In this document: in pieces, positions 15,055-46,749 of the stretch
Layout: each line of letters starts with the position of its first letter
Numbering within the stretch: the stretch's first letter is position 1
Source: Dehalogenimonas alkenigignens
GTDB taxonomy: Bacteria; Chloroflexota; Dehalococcoidia; Dehalococcoidales; Dehalococcoidaceae
DNA: 64,000 nt
Assembly: GCF_001466665.1 (NCBI RefSeq)
Contig: NZ_KQ758903.1
Location: forward strand, 1,609,684 to 1,673,683
Direction of reading: 5' to 3'
Notes under the pieces: generated by a model
Database searches by the model: none
What the model saw: the letters and a program-made list of their open reading frames with translations, nothing else
Told to the model about the DNA's origin: nothing
Translations under genes and position numbers: made by a program

Positions 15055-15083
15055 TTACTCTCCTTAAATGGGTTTTATATTGA

Positions 15084-15206
15084 GGCAAGCCCCACAGTGA
15101 ACCCCGATTACACCCAGGGAGCCCACGGGAGGGGTTTCACAGCCTGTTAGGCCGGGCTGGTCGCAACAACCCGGCGGCCCTGGTTTCCCCCACCATGAGG
15201 CTTGCC
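15084..15206 (-). ncRNA. Structured 5' leader of nrdJ (candidate cobalamin-related riboswitch, copy A)
   Basis: Read on the minus strand, GGCAAGC at the 5' end pairs with GCUUGCC at the 3' end, enclosing CAUGGUG with CACUGUG and CCAGGG with CCCUGG. A GC hairpin (GCCGGG with CCCGGC) and the conserved GUGAAACCCCUCCCGUGGGC lie in the centre. AACCCC can also pair with the later GGGGUU as a pseudoknot. A second copy at 33232-33356 keeps every stem, with compensatory changes. It ends about 30 bases before the nrdJ start, as expected of a translation-controlling riboswitch. It does not fit the standard cobalamin box as I know it. Confidence 0.75.
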
Positions 15207-15358
15207 AAAGAACGACTTCCTTGAAAGAGACGGCACCATCGCTACCCAACTGATGCATCAGAATTGTTGATAAGTTGCGCCCCAAAAGCGCAAACGACAA
15301 GAATGGCAGAAGTTATAATGAATTCGATCAATACACTGCCTCCTTTTATAACCACCTA

Positions 15359-30731: not shown

Positions 30732-31829
30732 ATGGAGGGGAGTGAGGATTTGGTCCGCGAATACACCCGAACTGAATCTCTAGGCGGTGTTTTGGGTACC
30801 GGACTAAACCCTATTGATGGACTGGGCATATACGAAGAAAATCCTAATCCTGTAATCCGGGCTTCCAAGGATGGGGTTATCCTTTATTCCAATCCGGGAA
30901 GCCTCGAATTGTGCCGAAAGTGGGATTGCGCTTTCGGAGGACTAGTGCCCAAACCTTATAAACGTCTCATCGAAGACGCGATTCAGACGATGTCCACTCG
31001 ATGGTCCCACGAGAAGGTTGACAATATTACCTATAGACTGCAAATTGTCCCGGTCCCTGGCCATGATTATGTTAATATTTTCGGATTTGCCACAGAAAGC
31101 CCCGATGTATCAGACGGAAACCGGCGGCAACGCCAGTCAAACCTCACTCGAGCCGCCGTCCATGAGTTAAAAAATCCCCTGACTCCGATTCTGGCGGCGA
31201 GCGAGATGCTGGTCAACCGTCTACCCGATGGGACTCCGGCCCGACTCGCAAAACAGATCAACCTCGGAGCCATAGAGTTGAATTCGCGGATCGGTGAGTT
31301 GTTCGAGTTGATACGCGGCGAAATGGGAACGCTGGTACTTGATTACCAGCAGGTAGAACTCAGCGAATTATGCCAGCAGGTAGTTGACTCTCTTCAGCCC
31401 GAGGCTGCAGACAAGGGAATAAACCTCCACGTCGAGTCGACGGACCGCAGTTATGAGGTGACCGGCGACCGGCGACGGCTGCGTGAAAGCATGGGACATC
31501 TTGTGAAATGCGCTATCAAACGAAGCAGCCTTGGAGCGGAGGTTAGGTTGACGCTTGGATTGTTAAACCAGGCAATGATAGTTCGTATTATCACTACCTG
31601 CCTTAACTTTCCTGACCGACTATCTGCGGTTATCTCAGCGCCTTATTCCGTATTGACGCTGGATCGGGATCATTTCAGTACTCTCGGGTTGGAATTAACC
31701 CTGTCCAAACTGCTTATCGAATTACATGGCGGCGATGTGAAGGTTACTGATAATTCCAGAGGCTGCTGCTTTGAGATCACTCTTCCAGTTGAGCCAGCTA
31801 TATCCGCCAACTCGGAGCTTCAAACTTGA
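30732..31829 (+). CDS. PAS-type histidine kinase with degenerate ATP-binding domain
   Basis: 365 residues without membrane helices. A PAS-like domain occupies residues 30-130 (YEENPNPVIRASKDGVILYSN). The dimerisation helix keeps the phospho-acceptor His144 in AVHELKNPLTPILAASEML, closely resembling the kinase at 16343. In the ATPase domain the N-box reads HLVKCAIKRS with Cys260 in place of the essential asparagine, and the DxGxG segment is replaced by IITTCLNFPD. It is therefore unlikely to bind ATP normally and may be a phosphatase, a phosphotransfer scaffold or a decaying kinase. Its stop overlaps the response regulator start. Confidence 0.85.
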   Translation: MEGSEDLVREYTRTESLGGVLGTGLNPIDGLGIYEENPNPVIRASKDGVILYSNPGSLELCRKWDCAFGGLVPKPYKRLIEDAIQTMSTRWSHEKVDNITYRLQIVPVPGHDYVNIFGFATESPDVSDGNRRQRQSNLTRAAVHELKNPLTPILAASEMLVNRLPDGTPARLAKQINLGAIELNSRIGELFELIRGEMGTLVLDYQQVELSELCQQVVDSLQPEAADKGINLHVESTDRSYEVTGDRRRLRESMGHLVKCAIKRSSLGAEVRLTLGLLNQAMIVRIITTCLNFPDRLSAVISAPYSVLTLDRDHFSTLGLELTLSKLLIELHGGDVKVTDNSRGCCFEITLPVEPAISANSELQT

Positions 31830-32500
31830 AAATACTGATAATCGAAGATGACCCAAATGTGCTTGAACTAGTAGAGCTTACCTTCGAACTCGGCTGGCCT
31901 GACATCAAACTCATTAAAGCGGTAACCGGGGAACAAGGTATGAATGCGCTTGAGAGCGAACCCCCGGATGCGGTCATTTTGGATATTGGTTTGCCCGATA
32001 CCAATGGTTTTGAAATTGTTAAAGCCATAAGGCTGTTCTCTGACGTTCCCATTCTCATGTTGACAGTCCGAGTCGACGAACGCGACGTCGTGAAGGCTCT
32101 GACGCTTGGGGCTGATGACTATCTGACCAAGCCATTCCGGCAGATGGAACTTCTGGCAAGGATCAAGGCGATAACCCGTCGAAGCCACCAGGGGGATCAG
32201 GACCTTAAAGTCAGCCATGGACTGTGGCGTTTCGGGAAGACATTAACTGAACTATATCACGGCCAGCAGGTGTTCCATCTGACCCCTATACAGGGACAGA
32301 TAATGCAGACCCTGATAAAACAAGCCGGCCAGTTTGTCAGCGCTGAAACATTGGCGGTAAAAATCTGGGGCGAACACCACGCCGCTACCGCAGACGATCT
32401 CAGAGTCCATATTCATCACATTCGAAAAAAGCTTGATCCAAGCGACTCAAAATTGATCGTCAACAAGCCCGGTCAGGGTTATATGTTTTCGCCTGATTAA
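31826..32500 (+). CDS. OmpR/PhoB-family response regulator
   Basis: 224 residues starting at a TTG that overlaps the kinase stop. The receiver domain has IIEDDP, the phospho-acceptor in AVILDIGLPDTNG, and LTKPFRQME. The C-terminal winged helix ends DDLRVHIHHIRKKLDPSDS and PGQGYMF. It is the paralogue of the regulator at 18111 (KPFRQMELIARIK is shared almost exactly). Four TTAAC repeats at 10-11 bp spacing lie 156 bases downstream of its stop and are a likely binding site ahead of the radical-SAM locus. Confidence 0.92.
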   Translation: MKILIIEDDPNVLELVELTFELGWPDIKLIKAVTGEQGMNALESEPPDAVILDIGLPDTNGFEIVKAIRLFSDVPILMLTVRVDERDVVKALTLGADDYLTKPFRQMELLARIKAITRRSHQGDQDLKVSHGLWRFGKTLTELYHGQQVFHLTPIQGQIMQTLIKQAGQFVSAETLAVKIWGEHHAATADDLRVHIHHIRKKLDPSDSKLIVNKPGQGYMFSPD

Positions 32501-32999: not shown

Positions 33000-33215
33000 A
33001 TGAAAACAGTCCAACCATCCATTACCTCTGATCTCAATTCCAATACACCTATCGAGGTCGAGGGTCCGGAAAAGCCTTTCGTCATGCGGTTGCCGTTTGC
33101 CTATACCTCGCTAGACGAAGCTTGCATCATGCAGGCTGATCGGATCTGGACGACAAAATGCAGCCACAAGTCAGTATCTAATTACTATTCATTATCGTTT
33201 AATCGTGGGCTCTAA
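33000..33215 (+). CDS. Small hypothetical protein upstream of the RNA leader
   Basis: The 71-residue frame begins MKTVQPSITSDLN after a GAGGAG sequence. The middle reads KPFVMRLPFAYTSLDEACIM, which looks like genuine protein, while the last 15 residues (SNYYSLSFNRGL) turn AT-rich. It may be a truncated gene. It ends 16 bases before the structured RNA. A leader or precursor peptide for the radical-SAM locus is conceivable but not supported by any motif. The rest of 32501-32999 holds only the phased repeats and no gene I can support. Confidence 0.4.
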   Translation: MKTVQPSITSDLNSNTPIEVEGPEKPFVMRLPFAYTSLDEACIMQADRIWTTKCSHKSVSNYYSLSFNRGL

Positions 33216-33231
33216 ACAGCGAATGTATCGC

Positions 33232-33356
33232 GGCAAGCTCTGCGGTGGGGGAAACCAGGGAAAGCTGGTTGCGCGACTCAGCCGGCTTGGAAGGTACTGT
33301 GGAACCCCTCCCGTGGGCAACCCTGGGCGTAATCGGGGTTCACCGCCGGGCTTGCC
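33232..33356 (+). ncRNA. Structured 5' leader of the radical-SAM operon (copy B of the nrdJ leader)
   Basis: This shares with 15084-15206 the blocks GGCAAGC, GGUGGGGGAAACCAGGG, ACCCCUCCCGUGGGC, GUAAUCGGGGUUCAC and GGGCUUGCC in the same order. The second stem is GCGGUG with CACCGC here and AUGGUG with CACUGU in copy A, so pairs change on both sides. The variable hairpin is AGCUGG with CCGGCU instead of GCCGGG with CCCGGC. The 3' end lies 28 bases before the start codon at 33385. Confidence 0.75.
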
Positions 33357-33384
33357 GAACTTAATTAGTAGATAAGAGGGAACA

Positions 33385-34200
33385 ATGCAAACAAACGTCT
33401 ACAACATCGCTTTCGCTGAATCTACCAAGCAGGTCTACCTTCATTTTTGGGGATGCAATATCAAGTGCAAAGGTTGCGTCTGCCAGAAGGTGGTTTATGA
33501 CTTCATGCTGGATCGGAATATGCACCTGCACCTGGCGGAACCCAGGGGTCTGGCGGCGGCCCCGGAACGGTTCATGGCATTTAACGACGTCATCGATACG
33601 CTGGTCGGTTTGGAGGCTAAGTGGGTCCTCTTTGAAGGCCAGGAGGCTTCGCTGGATCCCCAGATGCCGTTCATCGCTGAAGCGCTTCACCGGCATCTTG
33701 GAACTACCAACGTACTCCTGACCAATGCTTTTGTCATGCCCGATCTGAGACATTTTGATAAAGTCGCCGTCGGGCTGAAAGCTTTTAATGAAAACCTCCA
33801 CCGTGAGTATACCGGCGAATCTAACAGAACTATCCTGGAAAACTTCCCCAGAATATTCCACTCCGGTGTTCCGATGATGGCTGAGACGGTGCTCATTCCA
33901 GGCTATATCGATTATCAGGAAATAGAACAAATCGCAAAATTCATCGCAAGTGTTGATAAGAATATCCGATACCAAATTGATGCTTATTTCAAAGCCGGAA
34001 ATAATCCATGGCGAAGGCCGACGGCAGATGAGGTTGACCGGGCAGTGGAGGCAGCCTCGAAGCACCTGAATAATGTATACGCATACAAGGGTTCGGAGCC
34101 GCGGGAGTTCGGAGTGAAAAGCATTTTCCCGACCGAGGCTGAACTAGATGCCGCCGAGTTGGCGCCAGCAGTGGAATCACGCCACCTGGTGTATGCTTAA
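33385..34200 (+). CDS. Radical SAM protein (activase-like), first gene of the operon
   Basis: 271 residues with the radical SAM cluster motif in FWGCNIKCKGCVCQK near residue 28 (CX3CX2C). Further matches are the glycine-bearing LFEGQEASLDPQ and the late TVLIPGYIDYQEIEQIAKFI. The length and early motif resemble pyruvate formate-lyase-activase-like enzymes. AGAGGGAAC precedes the ATG. It lies directly behind the structured RNA and 15 bases before the first B12-radical SAM gene, so it should be made with them. Substrate unknown; glycyl-radical activation is unlikely because no partner enzyme is present. Confidence 0.85.
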   Translation: MQTNVYNIAFAESTKQVYLHFWGCNIKCKGCVCQKVVYDFMLDRNMHLHLAEPRGLAAAPERFMAFNDVIDTLVGLEAKWVLFEGQEASLDPQMPFIAEALHRHLGTTNVLLTNAFVMPDLRHFDKVAVGLKAFNENLHREYTGESNRTILENFPRIFHSGVPMMAETVLIPGYIDYQEIEQIAKFIASVDKNIRYQIDAYFKAGNNPWRRPTADEVDRAVEAASKHLNNVYAYKGSEPREFGVKSIFPTEAELDAAELAPAVESRHLVYA

Positions 34201-34215
34201 CCTGAGTTAAAAACG

Positions 34216-35718
34216 ATGAGGATCCTTCTTGTTATTCCATCCCGGTCTTACGGCACTGTTCCCGGATATACTAAGTTCCCTGATGAAATGCTGTCTATCG
34301 GGGGTATGCTTGAGAGCCGCGGCCATCAGGTCAAACTTGTCGACTGCAACCTCGATAAAAAGCGCCCGGTGGATTTTCTCGATTTTTGTCCCCAGTTGGT
34401 AGGTTTTTGCGTCGCCACAGGCCCAAATATCACCGATGCATTAACTCAATCATCTGAATTTAAAAACCTGTTCCCCGGGGTCAAGATCGCATGGGGCTTC
34501 CGTCACGCCAGCGCCTACCCTGCGGAAGTGCTACGGGAATCTTGCGCCGATTATGCCGTAATAGGACCTGGTGAATTCACCATCGCCGAACTTGCGGATC
34601 ATCTGGAGAAAAACTCCACCGATTACTCTTCCATAAAAGGCTTGGCCTTTAAAAACAGCGACGGCATGATTATCATTAATGAACCACGACCCTTTATGGC
34701 CGATTTGGATAGCCTGCCGGATCCAGCCTGGCATCTTATTGATGTAAATAGATATTCCGATGTGACCTTAAATACCTCACGCGGCTGCCCTTTCAAATGC
34801 ACCATCTGCTCTGATCCCACATTCTACGGCGGCAACATGTGCGACCTTTCGGCAGAACGGATCGTTGCCCAAATGGAGCTGCTTCACAAAAAGTACGGCA
34901 TCCAGCATATCTATTTTTCCGGTGAACGTTTTGTTATTAACCGTGAAAGGCTGCATCAGTTTTGCCGGTTGGTGATCCATAAGAAATGGAAAATCACTTG
35001 GAATGCGCCGGTATCAGGCGCTCTTGATGAAGAAACCGTCCGGCTGATGAAAAAAGCCGGTTGCACCTCCGTGCTCTTTGAGATCGAGACCGGCAGCCAG
35101 AGAATGCTATCCTTCATCAACAAAGGTACTGTCTCAGAGATGGAATCCACCTTCTGGCTGCTGGCGAAGCATCATATCATTCCCACCCTTTTCATGATGT
35201 ACGGGTACCCTACCGAGTCGGTTGAAGATTTCAACGAGAGCCTGACGTTCATGAAGCGCCTCGACTCCCCGCCATATCTGTATATGAAATTTGTGCCTTA
35301 CCCGGGTACCGTCCTTTTTGATTACTGCCTCGAACACGGGCTATTGAAGACCCCCCGGACACTTCAAGAGTGGGCTGATTTCCCCATTCAGTGCGCCAAC
35401 GAAATAAATTTATCCCAGGTACCTCAACAGAAGATGGATGAAGCGATGTCGGATTTCAGGCGCAGCTATGCTACACGCCGGGTCCGTTTCATGCTCCGTC
35501 ATAATCCCGCCTTTTTCTTAGACGCTGTAAAGCGGCCGCGCGAATTTTTCCGGTCGGTCTGGGATCTCGGGAAATATTACATCGATATCATGCTTGATCC
35601 GACCAACGGTTCTCAGTCGTGGCTGTCCAAACTTATAAAGAAGAATAGACACAGCGGCGGGTCTGAAAGTCCCCGCCTGCAAACCAAACAAGTTACCCGA
35701 GGGGGAGAGGTATCCTGA
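34216..35718 (+). CDS. B12-binding domain radical SAM protein 1
   Basis: 500 residues: an N-terminal cobalamin-binding fold (MRILLVIPSRSYG, then LVGFCVATGPNITDAL and YAVIGPGEFTIAELADHL, residues 1-150), then the radical SAM motif in TSRGCPFKCTICSD near residue 196. A TIM-barrel part follows with ETGSQRMLSFINKGT. The DxHxxG cobalt ligand is not visible, as in many class B members. Enzymes of this class methylate or rearrange unactivated carbons. The gene overlaps the next by one base. Its nearest relative in the window is the degenerate copy at 40266, with which it shares RVRFMLRHNP. Confidence 0.88.
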   Translation: MRILLVIPSRSYGTVPGYTKFPDEMLSIGGMLESRGHQVKLVDCNLDKKRPVDFLDFCPQLVGFCVATGPNITDALTQSSEFKNLFPGVKIAWGFRHASAYPAEVLRESCADYAVIGPGEFTIAELADHLEKNSTDYSSIKGLAFKNSDGMIIINEPRPFMADLDSLPDPAWHLIDVNRYSDVTLNTSRGCPFKCTICSDPTFYGGNMCDLSAERIVAQMELLHKKYGIQHIYFSGERFVINRERLHQFCRLVIHKKWKITWNAPVSGALDEETVRLMKKAGCTSVLFEIETGSQRMLSFINKGTVSEMESTFWLLAKHHIIPTLFMMYGYPTESVEDFNESLTFMKRLDSPPYLYMKFVPYPGTVLFDYCLEHGLLKTPRTLQEWADFPIQCANEINLSQVPQQKMDEAMSDFRRSYATRRVRFMLRHNPAFFLDAVKRPREFFRSVWDLGKYYIDIMLDPTNGSQSWLSKLIKKNRHSGGSESPRLQTKQVTRGGEVS

Positions 35719-37196
35719 TGAAAGTCCTGCTTGTAACATCAGCGGATAAAGCATACCGCCATTATTATCAGGCATATACCAACCTGCCTAACGGCCTGTT
35801 GTATATCGCCTCATTCCTCGAACGCCACGGCCACCAGGTGCAGATTTATGATGGGTACGTCGACGACCGTGAACCGAAGGACTTCGTCGATTTCAATCCT
35901 GATGTCATAGGTTTTTCAGTCATCACGGGACCAAACCTGGCGGGATCACTGATCCAATCGCGTGAATTTAAATCATTGTTGCCGGAAACAAAGATTGTAT
36001 GGGGTAACGTCCACCCATCGATCATGACAACCCAAACAATGCTTGAGGATTGCGTTGACTTTGTTGCCATCGGTGCCGGTGAATACACCATGCTCGAACT
36101 CCTGGAACATCTTAGAATCGGCACTCCGGCGCTCGATGAGATTAAAGGACTAGCTTTCCGGCGCGACGATGAAATAGTCGTCAACCAGAAACGTGAATTT
36201 ATCCGGAACCTCGTGGACATGCCTGACCCGGCCTGGCATCTGGTGGACGTAAAGAAATACTCAGGTATAGGCTTAAACACCTCCCGCGGCTGTGCTCACC
36301 GCTGCGCTTTTTGCTACAACAAATCCTATAACAAAGATTATATCGGCTATTTGCCGGCAGAGCGCATCATCGAACAGATCCAGCACGTCCAGAGAGAATA
36401 CGGGGCGAAACATGTCCGCTTCAATGAAGACAACTTCACATTTAACCGTAAACGTCTACGCGAGTTCTGCCGATTGATTATCGACCGAAAAATAAAAATC
36501 AGCTGGTCGTGCGACTCTCGCGCCGACCTGTCAGAATCGGATATCGCCCTTATGAAACGGGCGGGCTGTACTGCCGTCGGACTGGGATTGGAACACGGCA
36601 GTCAGCGAATGCTTGATTTTATCCAGAAGGACATCACCGTTCCCGAGATGGAGAGAACGTTTTGGACATTGGTCAAATACAAGATCCGAACATCAGTGTA
36701 TATCATGTACGGCTTTCCAACCGAAACGCTCGAGGATTTTCAGGCCACCCATGAAATGCTTAAACGGCTTGACAATCCCTATTACATGTATAACCGTTTC
36801 GTTCCTTTTCCGGGTAGCGCTTTATTTGAACACTGTGTTAATCATGGTCTCGTAAATCTGCCGGAAAAAATCGAGGATTGGCCTCAATATTTGATGCGCT
36901 TCTCCAATCAGGTGAATATTTCAGAAGTGCCGGATGATATGATGGCGGAAGCAGCCGCCCGTTGGCGCGTTTCCTACGCGGCGCAGCGGTTCCGTTTCAC
37001 CCTCAAACATAATCCATCTTATTTTTGGACAGCCATCACCGACCCGAAGAAATTTTTCCGTGAGCTCTGGGAGCTTGCCAAGTTCCACATCCAGGTGAAC
37101 GGTTACTACAAGGTTGTTAAAAAGACTTTAGCGGCACCCGAGGCTCCCAAATCAGCAAACGAATATGCCAAATCGGCGGCGGCCGCCGCCCGTTGA
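35718..37196 (+). CDS. B12-binding domain radical SAM protein 2
   Basis: 492 residues with the same architecture: MKVLLVTSADKAYRH and IGFSVITGPNLAGSL in the cobalamin-fold part, FVAIGAGEYTMLELLEHL, and the cluster motif in TSRGCAHRCAFCYNKSYN near residue 195. GLEHGSQRMLDFIQKD follows in the barrel. The C-terminal section (QRFRFTLKHNPSYFW) closely matches protein 3, so these two form a paralogous pair. GGGGGAGAGG precedes the ATG. The product of the pathway is not deducible from sequence; a lipid or natural-product modification is typical for the class. Confidence 0.88.
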   Translation: MKVLLVTSADKAYRHYYQAYTNLPNGLLYIASFLERHGHQVQIYDGYVDDREPKDFVDFNPDVIGFSVITGPNLAGSLIQSREFKSLLPETKIVWGNVHPSIMTTQTMLEDCVDFVAIGAGEYTMLELLEHLRIGTPALDEIKGLAFRRDDEIVVNQKREFIRNLVDMPDPAWHLVDVKKYSGIGLNTSRGCAHRCAFCYNKSYNKDYIGYLPAERIIEQIQHVQREYGAKHVRFNEDNFTFNRKRLREFCRLIIDRKIKISWSCDSRADLSESDIALMKRAGCTAVGLGLEHGSQRMLDFIQKDITVPEMERTFWTLVKYKIRTSVYIMYGFPTETLEDFQATHEMLKRLDNPYYMYNRFVPFPGSALFEHCVNHGLVNLPEKIEDWPQYLMRFSNQVNISEVPDDMMAEAAARWRVSYAAQRFRFTLKHNPSYFWTAITDPKKFFRELWELAKFHIQVNGYYKVVKKTLAAPEAPKSANEYAKSAAAAAR

Positions 37197-37229
37197 GAAT
37201 GCTTGCCAGTTATAGAAAGGCGAAATGAG

Positions 37230-38720
37230 ATGAGAGTACTCCTGGTTAATGCTCCTGCCCTGGACTATATCAAGTATTATAATTCTAATGCCTACACAAC
37301 TTTTGATTACGGCTTGTTGTCAATAGCAGCGGTGCTGGAACAGCATGGCCACAGCGTTCAAGTGTGGGATGGCTTCGTTGATTTCCGGAAGGCTAAAGAC
37401 TTTGTAGCTTTTAATCCCCAGCTAATCGGTTTTTCAGTCATCGCCGGACCGAACATGGAAGGTTCCATTTCGTTGTCGAAAGAATTCAGGGCACTTTTGC
37501 CTGGGGTGAAGATCGTCTGGGGTGACGTCCATGCCAGCGTATTGCCAGAACAGACGGTAACGCCGGACTACATCGATTACGTCGCCGTCGGCGCCGGGGA
37601 GTTCACCATGCTGGAATTGGTGCAGCACCTAGAAACGGGAACGCCGGCCTTAACAGAGATCAAGGGCCTGGGCTTCAAAGTAAACGGTCAGCCGGTTATC
37701 AATGAGCGGCGGCCGTTCATCAAAGATCTGGAAGCGTTGCCCGATCCGGCCTGGCATCTGATCGATGTAAAAAAATATTCCACTCCGGGGCTTAACACCT
37801 CGCGTGGCTGCGTCAATCAATGCACTTTTTGTTATAACAAATCATATAATCAGGGCTACACCGGTTGGGTCTCCGCCCAAAAGATAATCAAACAGATAGA
37901 CCACCTTCAGAATACTTATGGAATCAAATATCTCCGGTTTAATGAGGACAACTTCACCTTCAACCGGAAGCGCCTGCGCGAGATTTGCAATTTGTTGATC
38001 GCCCGCAAGCGCAAGATCAAATGGAGCTGCGACGCCCGGGCTGACCTCTCGGAGGCAGATATAGCATTAATGGCAAAAAGCGGTTGTGTGGATATCGGTT
38101 TAGGCATCGAAAGCGGCAGCCCCAGAATGCTGGAGTTCATAAAAAAAGATGTCACCGCAGAGCAGATGGCGGCAACTTTCTGGAATTTTATCAAATACAA
38201 AATCCGCACCTCGGTGTACATTCTTTACGGAATGCCGACCGAAACCGTAGAGGATTTCGAGACCACCCAAAGATTCCTAACTGAGAAATTAGACAGACCT
38301 TACTACATGTTCCATCGCTATGTACCATTTCCCGGGTCGGCGATGTATGACTACTGCGTCGAACACAATCTTATCAAAGTCCCCACCACGCTTGAAGAGT
38401 GGCCGGAGTACGTCAAATATTACGGTCACAAGGCTAACCTTTGCGAAGTGCCTCAGGAAATAATTGAAGCGGCGGTGCTCAAATGGTCGACGACCTATGC
38501 CATGCAGCGTTTCCGCTTCACACTGAAACACGATAAGTCGTATTTTTGGATTATCTTCAAGAATCCCTTGAAGTTTTTAAAGGAACTTCAGGGTTTGTGG
38601 AAATACCAGGCTCAGGTACACAACTACCATCGGACGGTAGTGAAAGAGCAGCGGCAGAAACTTGTCAATCCTGATGTCCTGTCGCTCTCCCGTTCGGGTA
38701 ATTCAAAGACGGTAGTGTAA
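37230..38720 (+). CDS. B12-binding domain radical SAM protein 3
   Basis: I chose the ATG at 37230 (MRVLLVNAPALDY), which has GAAAGG upstream and a start aligning with protein 2. The 496-residue protein carries the cobalamin-fold blocks IGFSVIAGPNMEGS and VAVGAGEFTMLELVQHL, the cluster motif in TSRGCVNQCTFCYNKSYN, and GIESGSPRMLEFIKKD. It is a close paralogue of the preceding gene (shared NKSYN and QRFRFTLKHDKSYFW), implying duplication and divergence within the operon. A GC-rich hairpin follows the stop, so this may end the first transcript. Confidence 0.88.
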   Translation: MRVLLVNAPALDYIKYYNSNAYTTFDYGLLSIAAVLEQHGHSVQVWDGFVDFRKAKDFVAFNPQLIGFSVIAGPNMEGSISLSKEFRALLPGVKIVWGDVHASVLPEQTVTPDYIDYVAVGAGEFTMLELVQHLETGTPALTEIKGLGFKVNGQPVINERRPFIKDLEALPDPAWHLIDVKKYSTPGLNTSRGCVNQCTFCYNKSYNQGYTGWVSAQKIIKQIDHLQNTYGIKYLRFNEDNFTFNRKRLREICNLLIARKRKIKWSCDARADLSEADIALMAKSGCVDIGLGIESGSPRMLEFIKKDVTAEQMAATFWNFIKYKIRTSVYILYGMPTETVEDFETTQRFLTEKLDRPYYMFHRYVPFPGSAMYDYCVEHNLIKVPTTLEEWPEYVKYYGHKANLCEVPQEIIEAAVLKWSTTYAMQRFRFTLKHDKSYFWIIFKNPLKFLKELQGLWKYQAQVHNYHRTVVKEQRQKLVNPDVLSLSRSGNSKTVV

Positions 38721-38777
38721 CGCTGAACCCCGGTCGCCGCTTCTAAATTTGACAGACAGTGAAACCGTAAATGGATA

Positions 38778-38814
38778 CCCGCGGGCGAATTCAAGGGAAG
38801 CGTTCGCCCGCGGG
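38778..38814 (+). terminator. GC-rich hairpin after B12-radical SAM 3
   Basis: CCCGCGGGCGAA at 38778 pairs perfectly over 12 bases with TTCGCCCGCGGG at 38803-38814. It lacks a T-run, so it is a possible attenuating or stabilising hairpin rather than a clear terminator. Confidence 0.5.
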
Positions 38815-38918
38815 GAACAACCGCTTCGATAAAGCTGGTCCCGGTGATATCATATTCTTTATGTAAGGTTATTCGAGGCTTGAACATGTTTACCCTATGC
38901 CTCAGTTGGAGCCAATAA

Positions 38919-40226
38919 ATGAATCTCGTCCTTATTCGTGAATGTTCCAACTCCTGTCCCTATTGCTTTGAGGCAGCTGAAAGGGAAGACCGAAAGCAGG
39001 GACTGATATCCATGGATAATGTCGGGCTGTTCGCCAAATGGGCTCGCGCTTCACGGCTTCCCTACCTGTCTCTACTGGGTGGCGAACCGTTCCTGCATCC
39101 CAAACTGCCAGACATTGTAAAATTATTCAGGCAACAGTGCCCCGGAACTTCTCTACGCATTTTAACAGGCGGTGTTTTCAACAAAGACATACTCGATGAT
39201 TTATCCCCAGAGGACGCCGCTTTGGTATTCAATGTCAATGAGCCAGTTGATTACCGCAACCCCAAACATTTCACAAAAGTCATCAACAATGTCGAAAACG
39301 CGATGCGAAAAGGTTTCAAAGTATCAATCGGTTTTAATGTCTGGCGACTGGATTTCGACCCAACGTTTATTCCGGGCTTAACACATCGTCTAGGATTGGG
39401 ACACTTTACCTGGACTGTGGCAAACCCGATCAAAAGCTGTGAATCCAGAATCGTCCCGGCAACGGATTTCGGCCTCCTGTCAGACCGTTGTTTCTCGATG
39501 CTCCAGGAAGCAGCCAGACTCGGTGTCGAAGCTACGCTTGACTGCCCACTGCCGTTATGTTTCTTCTCGGATACCCAGCTGGCCTGGGTAAGGCAGTTTC
39601 ACCCCGAAACCGCTTCCGGCATGGGCCCATGCGACCCGGTCCTGGATGTCACTCCGGAGCTGGAGGTAATCCGCTGCTTCGCTCTGTCCAAAGCTTCCAG
39701 GATCAAACTAACAGATTATTCTTCAGAGGAGGCTCTCGAAGAATGGTTCCGAAAACACCTCGATCAGACAATGATGCATGGGGGCTGCTATTCTGCCTGT
39801 ACCGAATGTGCCCATTTTATAAAGGGCCGATGCAACGGCGGCTGCCTGGCCTGGCATCCTGATCCGGGTGAAGAACAAAAAACGAGCCTTGAAGTCCGAA
39901 TGTACCGGGCTATCGAAGCCGGGACGCCTCAGGCTGCGGTTGAGATGTTCAACTCCGCCGGCCTTCTGGAAAAAACCGACATGGCCGCGTTCGCTGCCGC
40001 TGTAGCAGCTTCGCAGTTGGGCGATTGGGATGCGGCATTCCGTTACGCCTACTTCGCCAATGTTCGGGCCCGCAATCCCGAGTTCATGCGCCGTGTCGGG
40101 GCTTTCATAGAAGGTATCCCGGTTAAAGTTCAAATCAGTCCGAGCCAGGCGACAGAAATTCTCTCCACCCGGTTTGTTGCCTGCTCAGCATTCGATCGAA
40201 GCGATACTCAATCAAACAATAGCTAG
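38919..40226 (+). CDS. Radical SAM/SPASM-like protein
   Basis: 435 residues beginning MNLVLIRECSNSCPYCFEAA with the CX3CX2C motif near residue 9, followed by SLLGGEPFLHPKLPDI, the SAM-binding GGEP. The C-terminal region holds several cysteines (GPCDPVLDVTP, then CYSACTECAHFIKGRCNGGC) like a SPASM domain that carries additional 4Fe-4S clusters. SPASM enzymes commonly modify peptides or activate other enzymes. The region after residue 330 is helical and repeat-like. No certain precursor peptide is encoded nearby. It lies between B12-radical SAM genes and probably belongs to the same pathway. Confidence 0.82.
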   Translation: MNLVLIRECSNSCPYCFEAAEREDRKQGLISMDNVGLFAKWARASRLPYLSLLGGEPFLHPKLPDIVKLFRQQCPGTSLRILTGGVFNKDILDDLSPEDAALVFNVNEPVDYRNPKHFTKVINNVENAMRKGFKVSIGFNVWRLDFDPTFIPGLTHRLGLGHFTWTVANPIKSCESRIVPATDFGLLSDRCFSMLQEAARLGVEATLDCPLPLCFFSDTQLAWVRQFHPETASGMGPCDPVLDVTPELEVIRCFALSKASRIKLTDYSSEEALEEWFRKHLDQTMMHGGCYSACTECAHFIKGRCNGGCLAWHPDPGEEQKTSLEVRMYRAIEAGTPQAAVEMFNSAGLLEKTDMAAFAAAVAASQLGDWDAAFRYAYFANVRARNPEFMRRVGAFIEGIPVKVQISPSQATEILSTRFVACSAFDRSDTQSNNS

Positions 40227-40265
40227 GGTAATGCTTATTTTAAGCAGGTATTCTGCGATCAACCG

Positions 40266-41654
40266 ATGAGAATCGCTCTTATTATTCCATCCCGAGCTTA
40301 CCATGGGACGCCCGGGTATGCTGATTTCCCCGATGAACTCCTTTCGGTTGCCGGAGTCTTAGAAAAAAGCGGTCACCATATCACATTCGCCGATTATAAC
40401 GTCAACCTCAGCCCTGACCATGACAAAGTAGCCGCATTCAATCCTGGGCTCGCGGTTTTTTATGCCGGCACAGGGCCGGAAATAGCCGACGCCGCAGCCA
40501 GATCCCAATCGCTGAAAAAGGCCATCGCAAACGTCAAGATTGCCTGGATCGGCTGCCACCCTACTGTTTTCCCAAGCGAAACCCTGCGCGTGGAATATGT
40601 CGATTTTATCGTCATCGGATCCGCCGAAAAGCCGGTCAATGAACTCGCCTCGCGCATTGAACAAGGCAAGGATTTTTCAGCGATACGCGGATTGGGATTT
40701 AAAGACACTTCAGCCGCGATGGCGATCAACCCGCCCGATACCAAGCTCGACCCAGAGGTTTTGCCTGACCCGGCATGGCATTTAGCCGATGTCCGGCGCT
40801 ATCCTGACGTCAACTTGAACACCGCCCGCGGCGGGCTATACGCCTGTACTTTTTTCAGCGACGCCGCCGCTGATACCGGCAAACCTGTCGCTCCATCCCG
40901 CCTCGCCCGTCAGATGCAGGATCTCGCCCGGAACCACAGGGTAAAAAGCGTCTATCTGTCCGGAATGGGCTTTATCGGAATCCCGGACAACCTGCGCAGG
41001 TTCTGCCAGGCGATGATCGGCCTTGGGGTGAAACTACCCTGGCGATTGCCTGTTTCCCGAGAACTTGATGACGAGACGACCAGATTGATGGCGAGAGCCG
41101 GCTGCGCCTCAGTGTTGCTGGATGTCGGCAGCGGCAGCTCAAGGCTCCGGGACTTCATCGGCAAGGGCGACATCGGCGCGGTGGAGCGGACATTTCATCG
41201 GCTTGTCCGCCGCCGAATCATTCCCACGCTATACATCAACTACGACTACCCCGGCGAGACGGAGCCTGATTTTCAAGCCACCCTCGAACTGATTCGCCGC
41301 CTGGATTATCCGCCCTGCCTGTTACTCAAGTTTATTCCCTACCCCGGAACCGATCTGTACGAGTATTGTCGCCGTGAATCTCTCATCCAAATACCGGATA
41401 CCCTGGAAGGCTGGGCGGACTTTACGGCCGACTGCATGCGGCGGAGTTTCAGCCAGGTATCCCGCGAGTTGTTAAACACCACGCTGGCGGATTACCGCAA
41501 ATCTTACGCCGCGCGCCGGGTGAGGTTTATGCTCCGGCATAATCCGCGGTATTTTGTCTCGGTGATCAGCAGGCCGCGGGAATTCTACCGCAGGATGAAG
41601 GAATTGGTCAGCTACTGGCTGGGGATTGTCTCAGAAAAAAGAAAAAGCGGGTGA
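40266..41654 (+). CDS. B12-radical SAM paralogue with degenerate cluster motif
   Basis: 462 residues, clearly homologous to protein 1 (MRIALIIPSRAYHGTPGYADF, then RVRFMLRHNPRYF). Where the others have CX3CX2C, this reads ARGGLYACTFFSD near residue 195: the first and third cysteines are replaced by Gly and Phe, so a radical-SAM cluster cannot form in the usual way. The remaining frame is intact. It may be a non-catalytic partner, perhaps a scaffold or cobalamin/substrate-binding subunit, or an early pseudogene. Its final eight bases run into the 3' end of the tRNA-Gly gene on the opposite strand. Confidence 0.85.
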   Translation: MRIALIIPSRAYHGTPGYADFPDELLSVAGVLEKSGHHITFADYNVNLSPDHDKVAAFNPGLAVFYAGTGPEIADAAARSQSLKKAIANVKIAWIGCHPTVFPSETLRVEYVDFIVIGSAEKPVNELASRIEQGKDFSAIRGLGFKDTSAAMAINPPDTKLDPEVLPDPAWHLADVRRYPDVNLNTARGGLYACTFFSDAAADTGKPVAPSRLARQMQDLARNHRVKSVYLSGMGFIGIPDNLRRFCQAMIGLGVKLPWRLPVSRELDDETTRLMARAGCASVLLDVGSGSSRLRDFIGKGDIGAVERTFHRLVRRRIIPTLYINYDYPGETEPDFQATLELIRRLDYPPCLLLKFIPYPGTDLYEYCRRESLIQIPDTLEGWADFTADCMRRSFSQVSRELLNTTLADYRKSYAARRVRFMLRHNPRYFVSVISRPREFYRRMKELVSYWLGIVSEKRKSG

Positions 41655-41718
41655 CGAGATTCGAACTCGCGACAACCTGCTTGGGAAGCAGGCACTCTGC
41701 CAGCTGAGTTACACCCGC
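41647..41718 (-). tRNA. tRNA-Gly (anticodon CCC)
   Basis: The minus strand folds as a standard cloverleaf: acceptor GCGGGTG with CACCCGC, T-arm GCGAG around TTCGAAT and CTCGT, and anticodon stem CCTGC with GCAGG around TTCCCAA. The anticodon is CCC, reading GGG. No CCA is encoded. Its 3' end overlaps the stop region of the degenerate radical-SAM gene, a common position for island boundaries. Confidence 0.95.
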
Positions 41719-42459: not shown

Positions 42460-42711
42460 GGTGCTATTGTAGCACACGTGTTCCCTCATTCTGTCAAGCG
42501 ACTTTTGTCGTTTTTCCCGATATATTTTTTGTATTTCTAACCGATTAAGTATTGTAACCTATTGCCGGAAAGAGTATTATAATGCAAACCACACCCTAGA
42601 AATTGCGCCCCTGGGCAGTCTCTCCTCTTGCATGCCGGTCGGTCTGGGGCCCTGATAAACCACTTTACTTTGATAATAAATAGGTAACAGAAGTGCTGAG
42701 AAAGGATGGAC

Positions 42712-43170
42712 ATGAAAAAAATAATTTCGGTACTAAGTTTGATTTTAGTGTTAACCGCCGTAATTGCTTTCCCGATGACAACTTCGGCGGATACAACCAC
42801 TGTGACTGGATCTACACTTTCGTCCTATACCATTCAAACAACGGCAGCTTTCGGTTCAATGGCACCAGGTAGCACCAAGACGTTAGCCAATCAAGTGACA
42901 GCTTCATATGCATCAAGTGTTGCTGTGTCAGTAGCCGACGCTAGTGCCAGTTATTACACTGGACGCCTGCTTAAACTTGAATATGTCCTGTCAGATGTAG
43001 CGCAGATTACCATCACAGCGCCATTGGCGGACGGTGCAGGTGCATATAGTGTCTCGGGTTCACCTGCAACTATGGCGGCAACCGATGTTTGGGGTCTGAA
43101 AGCGACCACAGGTACAGTCGCCGGTGCTTGGGATAACGTTGTAATCACACTGACAGTTACACCTACGTAA
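42712..43170 (+). CDS. Secreted small surface protein
   Basis: I chose the ATG at 42712 (MKKIISVLSL), since AAAGG lies six bases upstream; a start two codons earlier would clash with the ribosome-binding site. The 152-residue product has a clear signal peptide ending near TTSADTTT. The mature part is rich in Ala, Ser, Thr and Val with beta-strand repeats (YSVSGSPATMAAT, then VVITLTVTPT). It resembles WxL- or spike-type adhesive surface proteins, but no motif is decisive. Two further exported proteins follow, suggesting a surface-structure gene group. Confidence 0.75.
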   Translation: MKKIISVLSLILVLTAVIAFPMTTSADTTTVTGSTLSSYTIQTTAAFGSMAPGSTKTLANQVTASYASSVAVSVADASASYYTGRLLKLEYVLSDVAQITITAPLADGAGAYSVSGSPATMAATDVWGLKATTGTVAGAWDNVVITLTVTPT

Positions 43171-43183
43171 TAATGCACTATTT

Positions 43184-43216
43184 GTGGGGTAGCCTTAACC
43201 TATAAGGCTACCCCAC
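43184..43216 (+). terminator. Strong hairpin after the secreted protein gene
   Basis: GTGGGGTAGCCTTA pairs with TAAGGCTACCCCAC around a short ACCTA loop. No T-run follows. It lies between the first and second surface-protein genes and may partly terminate, giving more of the first transcript. Confidence 0.65.
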
Positions 43217-43238
43217 GTACAAATCAATCGGAAATAAT

Positions 43239-43685
43239 GTGGTTAAAACGACAGCAATAACAATTGCTATTTTGGTATGTGTCTTGGTTATTGGGGGCGT
43301 TATTCCACTTACTGGATGTAAGTCCCCCTCTCAACCTGTAAGTCAGACCACGACTGTAAGTATTTCAGAGCAACCAAAACTATATCAACAGGATATTAAA
43401 GTAACGATTGGTGATAGCATTATACTAGGCAAAATTACCGACGAACTCGCTGATCTTGGCACAATTAATAAGGGCGACAAAGCTTCTTATACCATCACCA
43501 TCCACAACGCCGCCGAACAAACCATAAAGATTAAAGTAAATACAAACGGTAATATTTCCCAGGTGGCAACATTTACCTATTCAGAAATAATAGCGCCAAA
43601 AGTAAACGGAGTGATAACAGTCGATGTTCGCGGAGAAACGGCAGGATTTTACTCTGGAACAATTACCGTGGAGCGAGTAGGTTGA
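43239..43685 (+). CDS. Exported lipoprotein
   Basis: The 148-residue frame starts at a GTG. The N-terminal 30 residues form a hydrophobic signal ending in the lipobox LTGC, so the mature protein should be lipid-anchored. The mature part has a beta-rich section (ASYTITIHNAAEQTIKIKV, then FYSGTITVERV) like an Ig-type bacterial surface domain. Its stop overlaps the start of the following large surface protein, indicating co-expression. AT-rich like the gene before it. Confidence 0.75.
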   Translation: MVKTTAITIAILVCVLVIGGVIPLTGCKSPSQPVSQTTTVSISEQPKLYQQDIKVTIGDSIILGKITDELADLGTINKGDKASYTITIHNAAEQTIKIKVNTNGNISQVATFTYSEIIAPKVNGVITVDVRGETAGFYSGTITVERVG

Positions 43686-45106
43686 AACGCAGTGGCATAT
43701 TCACGCTGGTGTCATTAGTCTTATTTTTTACCTTACCTTGCATCCGGTTAGAAGCTCAGGATACAGTAGTCACGGGTGAAACTGCGCCATTAACAATAAC
43801 TGACGTAACGGCGAATAATATTACCACCTCGGCTGCCACAATCACCTGGGAGACCAACAGTAACACCACATCACAAGTATTTTTTGATACCATATTGCAC
43901 CCAGACGTCGCCGATTATAGATTTGCTACCACGCTCGACACTAACCACGTCACGATGCACACTGTGAGCTTAAACGGGCTCACTTCTAGCACTACTTACC
44001 ATTATCGGGTAAAATCCGACCTTCCAGATACAACCCTATCTGTTATTTCAGACGATTATACCTTCACAACCACCCAGGCCTCAGGCGGCGGTGGAGGAGG
44101 CGGAGGCGGCGGCTTCGGATCTCAGCTCGTCGGCATCGGGCTTGCTGGCACCTCTCCGTGGATGGACGGCAACGGCAAGGCCATCACCGCCGGTACCGTG
44201 GCCACCCCGGACGGAACCCTCACCCTTAACATTCCCGTCGGCACCTTTGTCTGGAACGCCGCCGGCGCCGCCCAGCCGTTCCTATCGGCGGTACCGCTTG
44301 CCGATCCTCCGGCGAGCCCGGACAAGAACATACTGGTCTTTGCTTACGAAATGGGGCCGACCGGCGTCACCTTCAACCCGGCCATCTCGATGACCTTCAA
44401 GTACACCGATGCCCAGGTGCCGCCAGGGACCCGCGAAGTTGATCTGGTCATTGCCTGGTGGAACGGCTCCCAATGGGTGATGCTGACCGGCGTTGTCGAT
44501 ACCGAGGCCAACACCGTCACGGCAGCTGTCTCCCACTTCACAGCCTTCGCCCTGTTCGCTCCGGCGCCGCCGCCGCCCCCGCCGCCGACGCTTAAGATCA
44601 ATACACCGGCGGCAGGCGCTTCCTTCGAGGCGGGAACCGTCAGCGTATCGATCAGCGCCGGCAACCTGAAACTCATCAGCGGCCAGAGCGCCAACATCCC
44701 CGGCGAAGGGCGGGCGATCTACTATCTCGATGTCAGCATACCGACAACACCGGGGCAGTCAGCGCTGACCGCGCCGGGGACTTACGTCGAGAGCGCCCTC
44801 ACTTCCTACACCTGGAACAACCTGGCGCCCGGAACTCATACCATTGGCGTGCAACTGGTGCAGAACGACCGGACGCCGTTCAATCCGCCGGTCTATGCGT
44901 CAGTTTCGGTGACCATTGCCCAGCCGCCTCCTCCGACGACGACGGCGGCTATCCCGATTCCAACCGCTACCGTTGGACCAACACCGGAACCCGGATCCAA
45001 CTTGATGCCCATCTTGATCGTTTCGGTCGTAGTGGCTCTAGCTCTCGGCGGGTTCCTGTACTGGAGACTGCGCCGGCCGGTGGGGTTGAAATACACTAAC
45101 CGGTAA
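43682..45106 (+). CDS. Surface protein with fibronectin type III domain and C-terminal membrane anchor
   Basis: 474 residues from a TTG start that overlaps the upstream stop. After a signal peptide (to about residue 26), residues 30-135 form a fibronectin type III-like domain (ATITWETNSNTTSQVFF, then TTYHYRVKS). A run of ten glycines links to a second beta-rich region, a proline run and a further Ig-like region. A membrane helix (LMPILIVSVVVALALGG) with a basic tail anchors it. Base composition changes from AT-rich to strongly GC-rich at the glycine run, so the gene looks fused from two sources. Confidence 0.8.
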   Translation: MKRSGIFTLVSLVLFFTLPCIRLEAQDTVVTGETAPLTITDVTANNITTSAATITWETNSNTTSQVFFDTILHPDVADYRFATTLDTNHVTMHTVSLNGLTSSTTYHYRVKSDLPDTTLSVISDDYTFTTTQASGGGGGGGGGGFGSQLVGIGLAGTSPWMDGNGKAITAGTVATPDGTLTLNIPVGTFVWNAAGAAQPFLSAVPLADPPASPDKNILVFAYEMGPTGVTFNPAISMTFKYTDAQVPPGTREVDLVIAWWNGSQWVMLTGVVDTEANTVTAAVSHFTAFALFAPAPPPPPPPTLKINTPAAGASFEAGTVSVSISAGNLKLISGQSANIPGEGRAIYYLDVSIPTTPGQSALTAPGTYVESALTSYTWNNLAPGTHTIGVQLVQNDRTPFNPPVYASVSVTIAQPPPPTTTAAIPIPTATVGPTPEPGSNLMPILIVSVVVALALGGFLYWRLRRPVGLKYTNR

Positions 45107-45186: not shown

Positions 45187-46749
45187 TTACTTGTATCCGC
45201 CGTGCTGGGCGCCGACAATGCTGTTGATGTTGTATGCCGGCAGCGACATATCCCACCACTTCTCTTTTTCCTCGCCTTCGACAACCCCGTATCCGAACGC
45301 CTCATGCATCGAGGCGAAGAAGCCGTTGAAAATGCCGATATTGGCCGAGGTGGCTTTCACGATGTCGTGCACCATCGCCCCTCGAGGGCTGTTGAAGACG
45401 CAGGACGGGAAGCAGCGCAGGCAGTTGTCAACCGTTCTCCGGTAGCCCCAGCAGGTGATCATGTCGGTCCAATAGGTCTTCCGGCCTGTTTTAAAGTAGT
45501 CTGACTCACCGGGTGTCGGCTTGTCCCATCCCAGGCCCGGCAGCGCTGGGTCCTTGGGAGTGATGGATGACGGGTAAGGTTCATAGGAAGGCTCCCGGTC
45601 GCCTTTATGCTCAATTGAGTTCGAGGGGCAGGCGTTGGCGCATTGGCCGCAGCTGTGGCAGAAGTTCCACATGCCGGCGTCAATGGGTTTGCTGGGCGCC
45701 AGCGGCAGATCGGTGATCAGGTGGAAGAAGCCGCACCAGGCGCCGAACTCCGGGCTGAGGGCCATGATGGTATGGCGCCCGTTCTCGGCCAGACCCTGAA
45801 GCACCGCGTCAGCGCCGGTGGGGATGGCGCGGTAGTTGGTGTCGCTGTAGCCGTGATAGCCGAGACCGCGCAGGAATTCCAGGGTGCAGTAGGTTACATG
45901 CTCATCCCGGCGATAGCGGCTGGTATTGGCGGCGCCCATAAGTTGAGAATGAGCCGTTTTAGCCATTTCCTGAGGCATGGGCATGGACCAGGTGACGATA
46001 TAAAGGGGCACCTTGCTCGGCAGCACGTGCTTGCCGGTTTTTTCATCTACATAGCCGACAGGTACGTCTTCGAATACCTGGGGTTTGATAACGGTGTCCG
46101 GCGGGGGAAATTTCGGCGGGTAGAAAGCGGTCGAAACATTGTCGCCGTGGGTGCCGACCAGCTTCAGGTGATCGTCGTGGAGTTCGCCGAAAGACACATC
46201 GGAGGCACCGTAGGCGATCATCGCAGACCGAAGCATTTTGGCCGCCTCGTCGGCGGAGCCGGACCATTTTGGGACGCCAAGCTGCTCCGGCGTTGAGACA
46301 CGCTGGTAACCCACGTAAGCTTTATTCGATGAGGGGCCGCCGGTAACCCGCCAGGAACCGAAACCGAATCCCAGCGGACCTTCCCAAACACCGGCCGCGG
46401 CGGAAAAAGCGACATCGCGGAGCTGGTATCCGGGCTCGTTATTCTTCAACCGCTCGGTCGTGCTGGGCAGGGTTTGAGCATTGTAATCCGACAAGCCGAA
46501 GTATCGGGCGACGATGGCGGCGGACTGGGTGCTGTGAAAGCCGTGATGCCGGGCCATCATCTGCCAGTCAATATCCACCGTTGGGTGATCCACTTCTTTT
46601 ATCCACCAGGCTCGCTTCCGGGTGTTATTGGGGGCAGCGGATAGCTCATCTATGTCGTGAAACGCCGGAGCTACCGCTGAGGCGGCGCCGACAAGACCTA
46701 AACCTTTCATGAAATCCCTGCGGCTGAGTGTTGAATGAAACCTGCTCAT
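45187..46749 (-). CDS. rdhA: Reductive dehalogenase catalytic subunit RdhA without rdhB
   Basis: 520 residues with the Tat signal SRRDFMKGLGLVGAASAVAP near residue 9 and FHDIDEL after it. Cluster one is CHSCGQCANACPS and cluster two is CWGYRRTVDNCLRCFPSC; all eight cysteines are present. Compared with the two island RdhA it is longer, GC-rich and has a distinctive insertion between the clusters. No rdhB follows: the next gene converges behind a terminator, and none precedes it. It must use an RdhB encoded elsewhere or act unanchored. GGAGGGAAA precedes the ATG. Confidence 0.95.
   Translation of the reverse strand: MSRFHSTLSRRDFMKGLGLVGAASAVAPAFHDIDELSAAPNNTRKRAWWIKEVDHPTVDIDWQMMARHHGFHSTQSAAIVARYFGLSDYNAQTLPSTTERLKNNEPGYQLRDVAFSAAAGVWEGPLGFGFGSWRVTGGPSSNKAYVGYQRVSTPEQLGVPKWSGSADEAAKMLRSAMIAYGASDVSFGELHDDHLKLVGTHGDNVSTAFYPPKFPPPDTVIKPQVFEDVPVGYVDEKTGKHVLPSKVPLYIVTWSMPMPQEMAKTAHSQLMGAANTSRYRRDEHVTYCTLEFLRGLGYHGYSDTNYRAIPTGADAVLQGLAENGRHTIMALSPEFGAWCGFFHLITDLPLAPSKPIDAGMWNFCHSCGQCANACPSNSIEHKGDREPSYEPYPSSITPKDPALPGLGWDKPTPGESDYFKTGRKTYWTDMITCWGYRRTVDNCLRCFPSCVFNSPRGAMVHDIVKATSANIGIFNGFFASMHEAFGYGVVEGEEKEKWWDMSLPAYNINSIVGAQHGGYK

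Follow-up and report, generated by a model that had tools for sequence, protein, structure and literature searches.

Cobalamin-dependent radical S-adenosylmethionine (SAM) enzymes such as BchE, HpnJ, OxsB, TsrM, TokK, CysS, and MgmA/Mmp10 join a B12-binding domain to a radical-SAM domain with a CxxxCxxC motif; one of these B12-radical-SAM enzymes, MgmA, is the glutamine C-methylase of methyl-coenzyme M reductase (PMC11796369). The same domains and motif occur in three adjacent genes (B1, B2, and B3) of a six-gene island in Dehalogenimonas alkenigignens, the source genome (G000) of the 64,000-nucleotide stretch analyzed here (the window, G000:C1:1609684-1673683). The island comprises act, B1-B3, SPASM, and Bdeg, short names used throughout together with R1 for the leader RNA family that precedes it. 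At roughly even odds (a probability near 0.5), we read this island as one copy of a multi-copy Dehalogenimonas cassette, usually found in operons with the reductive dehalogenase gene rdhA, that has lost its local rdhA and tailors a dehalogenase or its cobamide. The association of the cassette with rdhA is well supported; what we infer beyond it concerns the substrate, the reaction, the leader ligand, and a continued service to dehalogenases encoded elsewhere.

Several features distinguish the island from these described systems. No NCBIfam model of cobalamin-dependent radical-SAM enzymes is reached at cut-off (the best, BchE, gives 159 of 481 bits), and, unlike those enzymes, the island genes occur as three or four paralogues per operon with act and SPASM, linked to rdhA. 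The predicted fold of B2 is nearest to AprD4, OxsB, MgmA, CysS, TsrM, and TokK. MgmA would be the closest functional analogy, as a B12-radical-SAM enzyme that tailors an anaerobic tetrapyrrole enzyme, and fold and sequence both match 9ccb, although identity in the structural alignment is about 18%. Glycyl-radical-enzyme activases (pyruvate-formate-lyase activase, YjjW) share their fold and CxxxCxxC with act, but the act cassette is without a glycyl-radical enzyme and relatives of act lie in cobalamin operons. Among riboswitches, R1 stands where leaders resembling the cobalamin riboswitch RF00174 precede paralogous act genes, and distant R1 relatives precede molybdenum-hydroxylase genes, which invites comparison with the molybdenum-cofactor riboswitch RF01055; neither model matches any R1 copy. 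A reading made from the sequence alone (the sequence-only reading) had called the pathway undescribed, and this holds: no curated NCBIfam family is reached at cut-off by the island gene set, and no description of the cassette was found among the open-licence papers searched. The word "radical" is absent from the IP3-3 genome paper (PMC4918011), as is the string "radical S" from PMC13390414.

Linkage of the cassette to rdhA and nrdJ

The genus survey covered eight Dehalogenimonas genomes (G000, G068, G113, G124, G135, G178, G189, and G200), from which roughly 1.29 Mb of sequence surrounding the rdhA, act, and B12-radical-SAM genes was taken; open reading frames (ORFs) were called simply, by length, and classes were assigned with profiles built for this analysis. 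Strains BL-DC-9 and W carry few of these radical-SAM genes. The 55 relatives of B1-B3 in these genomes form repeated cassettes, many with act, in operons with rdhA or with nrdJ, the gene for B12-dependent (class II) ribonucleotide reductase. For 30 of them an rdhA is found no more than 5 kb away, with 28 at 3.5 kb or less and on the same strand; an act gene is likewise within 5 kb of 30. An even spread of rdhA genes would put about 19% of the relatives this close (5 kb) to rdhA, which gives a binomial P of 3e-9 that is nominal, like all linkage statistics here; because the copies are non-independent and rdhA genes cluster, the tree is the better argument. B2 and B3 fall in a single 19-row clade whose members are all rdhA neighbors apart from the copies in the islands of G000, G178, and G189, and half of the B1 clade also follows rdhA. 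Gene orders include act-B-rdhA-rdhA (G124, G178), act-rdhA-B-B-rdhA, act-B-B-rdhA-rdhA-rdhA, and act-rdhA-B (all G189), and rdhA-act-B-nrdJ (G178, G200); of these, act-B-rdhA-rdhA, the act-rdhA-B-B part, act-B-B-rdhA-rdhA-rdhA, and rdhA-act-B-nrdJ run in tandem on one strand. One G189 cassette whose operon includes rdhA spans 1173959-1183215. Relatives of SPASM are located between or beside rdhA genes in G189, G200 (two), G178, and G068.

The sequence-only reading had proposed a self-contained pathway and suggested searching for conserved linkage in relatives. Such linkage does recur within the genus; at many loci, however, the genes sit with rdhA or nrdJ, and act accompanies cobalamin genes in distant phyla, so that the pathway cannot be called self-contained. 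A lipid substrate likewise found no support, as no lipid gene was seen next to the island or in those paralogous cassettes that were inspected. Each Dehalogenimonas genome has several nrdJ matches; many of these stand behind R1, and some share operons with act and B12-radical-SAM genes. Two B12-radical-SAM genes in conserved tandem (G000:C1:853826-856895, with equivalents in G068, G124, G178, G189, and G200) have no rdhA, act, SPASM, or nrdJ nearby and probably serve a separate core function.

The linkage could instead reflect a corrinoid-availability regulon only, in which B12-dependent enzymes share a signal and the product of B1-B3 and SPASM (for example a modified tRNA, nucleotide, or lipid) is unrelated to dehalogenases. 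We regard this as rather unlikely. Pairs of act and B genes that lead straight into nrdJ, the many nrdJ genes preceded by R1, the phylogenetic scatter of rdhA genes linked to radical-SAM genes, and the conserved pair without rdhA in six genomes speak for it; but members of the B2/B3 clade, and half of those of the B1 clade, track rdhA specifically, and the SPASM protein, which is not a B12 enzyme, tracks rdhA too.

The loss of a local rdhA is recorded in an orthologous island. The G189 island is arranged as in the window (kinase, regulator, small ORF, leader, act, B1, B2, B3, SPASM), with identities to the window of 81% for act, 74% for B1, 77% for B2, 86% for B3, and 59% for SPASM, and its 95-amino-acid frame between B3 and SPASM is a C-terminal fragment of RdhA (profile positions 436-482, E 1e-11). 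No rdhA remnant was found in the G178 island, nor in the window within the 38720-38919 gap or across 30-47.5 kb, except for the intact gene at 45187. The B3-SPASM gap, the site of the G189 fragment, contains a strong GC-rich inverted repeat in the window (CCCGCGGGCGAAT / GTTCGCCCGCGGG, 38780-38815). The simplest account is that a cassette with an rdhA gave rise to the island when its dehalogenase gene disappeared, and that the G000/G178 line gained or kept Bdeg.

Gene content and integrity of the island

All six ORFs are intact and lie on the same strand (window 33385-41654), as the sequence-only reading had placed them, and its assignment of an activase-like protein, three B12-radical-SAM enzymes, a SPASM-like protein, and a degenerate B12 paralogue holds. 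The act gene (33385..34200, +) encodes a radical-SAM protein (PF04055) with the motif CNIKCKGC and a predicted fold like that of pyruvate-formate-lyase activase. B1 (34216..35718, +; CPFKCTIC), B2 (35718..37196, +; CAHRCAFC), and B3 (37230..38720, +; CVNQCTFC, with a possible alternative TTG start at 37203) are B12-binding radical-SAM proteins that exceed both Pfam cut-offs (PF02310 and PF04055). The SPASM-like radical-SAM protein (38919..40226, +; PF04055, CSNSCPYC) has no match to the SPASM Pfam domain at E 0.001; its invariant cysteines (C238-x14-C253 and C294-x2-C297-x7-C305-x3-C309) are non-canonical in spacing as compared with CX9-15GX4C ... CX2CX5CX3C. Bdeg (40266..41654, +) is a B12-binding radical-SAM paralogue that matches PF02310, scores under the Pfam cut-off for PF04055 (Radical_SAM), and is the exception among the six proteins in lacking CxxxCxxC; the Bdeg of G178 likewise lacks it.

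Ratios of nonsynonymous to synonymous substitution rates (dN/dS), computed against the G178 counterparts, are 0.05 for act, 0.10 for B1, 0.07 for B2, 0.03 for B3, 0.08 for SPASM, and 0.21 for Bdeg, and this purifying selection argues that the island is more than a chance assembly. Given purifying selection throughout, Bdeg is a maintained pseudoenzyme rather than a gene that has only just broken down. An island in decay, without present function after the loss of rdhA and the degeneration of one enzyme, would account for the rdhA fragment in G189, the lack of rdhA in the islands of G000 and G178, and the missing cluster motif of Bdeg; six frames open in both genomes at dN/dS of 0.03-0.21, together with the conserved leader, regulators, and gene order, make it improbable.

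B1 groups with Bdeg in the tree (support 90; Bdeg branch 1.92), and the pairing of these two, as of B2 with B3, had been recognized from the sequence alone and is correct as phylogeny. The paired genes are old paralogues rather than local duplicates, because each one, B2 and B3 included, is more closely related to genes at other loci, and the paralogy predates the island.

Further elements flank the island, and the sequence-only reading had overlooked the two-component system (30732-32500), the small ORF (33000-33215), and the tRNA-Gly over the end of Bdeg, as well as the rdhA link itself. The histidine kinase (30732..31829, +; HisKA and HATPase_c) keeps its gene order in G178 and G189, and the receiver and winged-helix response regulator (31826..32500, +; Response_reg and Trans_reg_C) is 99% identical in G178 and 83% in G189. 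A tRNA-Gly(ccc) gene (41646..41718, -) overlaps the end of Bdeg by nine bases, in the same layout in G178, and forms the right-hand boundary of the cassette. It was considered as an integration site and rejected, since the window contains no further copy of the tRNA 3' end. Beyond it lie three putative exported or membrane proteins (42706-45106, +; a secreted-looking protein of 154 amino acids, an Ig-like one of 148, and a fibronectin-type one of 474) and then, outside the cassette and on the opposite strand, the nearest rdhA (45187..46749, -; PF13486 at E 2.7e-218, with a twin-arginine translocation signal), given as context only. Its length and the absence of rdhB fit DEALK_17450 (PMC4918011).

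The small ORF P0001 (33000..33215, +; 71 amino acids) has the motif R-[LI]-P-x-x-Y-T-[SA]-[LM]-[DN]-x-x-C and occurs in five copies, only in rdhA/radical-SAM loci, in three genomes; it is 86% identical in G178, and its middle part is kept in three G189 loci. Its dN/dS of 0.39 over 71 codons is weak evidence alone. SPASM and B12-radical-SAM enzymes are frequent in peptide maturation, and the ORF stands at an equal position in G178 and G189, so that it might be the precursor in a ribosomal peptide pathway served by the radical-SAM enzymes. The would-be core, the C-terminal half, is however not conserved between G189 and the window, unlike the middle, and this variable C-terminus is a poor fit to a conserved modified core; other copies of the ORF lie beside rdhA and not act, the cassette is without a peptidase or exporter, and models of ApyD and other peptide maturases score far under their cut-offs. 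We therefore hold a peptide pathway to be very improbable, and the ORF may instead encode an accessory protein or a small regulator. Of the earlier suggestion that the substrate is a peptide made elsewhere, the conserved ORF keeps a peptide substrate possible; a dehalogenase or its cobamide is the more specific candidate and is preferred.

Corrinoid context of act and the R1 leader

The nearest match to the predicted structure of act is pyruvate-formate-lyase activase. A role as glycyl-radical activase is not convincing, because act stays far under the cut-off of every one of the 13 NCBIfam models for activase-type proteins (the highest score is 48.3 of 430 bits) and no partner glycyl-radical enzyme occurs among the ORFs read between 26 and 50 kb. 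Of 26 loci with act relatives outside the genus, 12 contain at least two cobalamin uptake or salvage genes within 5 kb (btuF, btuC, cobT, cobU, cbiB, cobD, cbiP, cobS, cobA, and cbiZ were counted, with a Pfam check on three loci), including loci in Methanocellales archaea, Aquificota, and Omnitrophica. In the source genome, three act paralogues lie inside a cobA-cbiB-cbiZ-nrdJ locus. Four others (G178, G189) start 94-110 nt past short RF00174-like leaders that score 24-30 bits, just under the Rfam cut-off, and eight act paralogues are preceded by R1. The cobalamin-gene neighborhoods and the RF00174-like leaders place act in a corrinoid-associated radical-SAM family.

The R1 leader of the island (33225..33358, +) ends 27 nt before the start of act. 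A model built from 18 copies located R1 in 23 genomes of a class sample of 393. The RNA leader noticed in the sequence-only reading is real: a long-range helix of 6 bp (CCAGGG/CCCUGG), which pairs the segment after GGGGGAAA with the segment before GUAAUC, is complete in 31/31 sequences, with compensatory changes at four of its six positions. It crosses a predicted GGGG/CCCC helix, which implies a pseudoknot; single-sequence folding is unremarkable (z -1.87). No Rfam model matches R1, motifs published outside Rfam not having been compared. RF00174 was rejected as an identity for R1, with no copy at or near threshold, and so was RF01055, with no copy at E up to 1 where canonical copies score 59-78 bits; canonical members of both families are located elsewhere in the same genomes.

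In Dehalogenimonas, copies of R1 stand ahead of act cassettes, rdhA, nrdJ, and the cbiZ operon. A second copy in the window (15076-15209, -) immediately precedes an nrdJ gene and falls within the ssrA-associated dcpA island published for D. alkenigignens IP3-3 (1,612,218-1,635,409; PMC13390414), which corresponds to window 2535-25726, with the tmRNA at window 2069. The dcpA island of G200 holds an identical trimmed copy; because R1 is found inside the dcpA islands of both, it travels on a mobile element. In six distant Dehalococcoidia (L119, L122, L123, L124, L127, and L140), R1-like leaders stand before lookalikes of molybdenum-hydroxylase (xanthine-dehydrogenase-like) subunits, Pfam-checked in L122 only, and, in L140, before a transporter lookalike of molybdate type. 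The R1 family may have more than one ligand, and that its ligand in Dehalogenimonas is a corrinoid is our guess.

Candidate targets and significance

Were the cassette to act on dehalogenases, a corrinoid-linked structured leader and the two-component system would switch it on, and act would handle or activate corrinoid. B1-B3 would then use bound corrinoid and SAM for a radical C-methylation, or a related step, on the RdhA polypeptide or the cobamide; the SPASM protein would supply a second radical step, and Bdeg might be a non-catalytic partner or a corrinoid-binding subunit. We know of no modification of RdhA, and we give the RdhA protein and the cobamide about equal weight as substrate: occurrence with nrdJ and cobalamin genes points toward the cofactor as target, and occurrence of the SPASM protein with rdhA points toward RdhA. 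Two tests able to favor RdhA (partner clade and residue marks) were negative or nonsignificant. A more specific proposal, in which a radical-SAM maturation system for reductive dehalogenases, modifying RdhA or its cobamide, is run by a riboswitch class that is corrinoid-linked, uncatalogued, and also used by nrdJ and cobamide-salvage genes, is put forward tentatively and is more doubtful than not.

Several observations weigh against reading the island as a former rdhA cassette that tailors dehalogenases or their cobamide. The island's own operon in the window lacks a same-strand rdhA, which is present in paralogous cassettes and was formerly present in G189, and for 14 of the 55 B12-radical-SAM relatives no rdhA, act, SPASM, or nrdJ gene is near. 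The rdhA genes linked to radical-SAM genes are scattered on the RdhA tree, with 22 changes against a mean of 38 after shuffling, and a single RdhA partner clade was rejected on this ground. Some RdhA residues are strongly enriched next to radical-SAM genes in the raw data (K/R ahead of the first Fe-S motif at p 6e-11, W/F at p 3e-9), but not significantly so in phylogenetically independent pairs (median p 0.18). The molybdenum-hydroxylase genes behind R1-like leaders in distant genomes, and in L140 a molybdate-type ATP-binding cassette transporter (judged by sequence appearance only), weaken the case for a corrinoid as R1 ligand. The linkage, finally, can mirror co-regulation and not a shared reaction.

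A replacement of the RdhB membrane anchor by radical-SAM genes was also considered and is unsupported: 3/19 rdhB-paired and 37/127 unpaired rdhA genes lie near B12-radical-SAM genes (Fisher p 0.28). For most rdhA genes of Dehalogenimonas, neither a function nor a membrane anchor is known (PMC4918011, PMC13390414), and members of the genus rely on salvaged cobamides (PMC13390414). R1 is in its own right a separate candidate riboswitch class. If the dehalogenase reading of the cassette is true, some dehalogenases or their cofactor need chemistry that has so far not been looked for, and this could bear on the failed production of active RdhA in other hosts.

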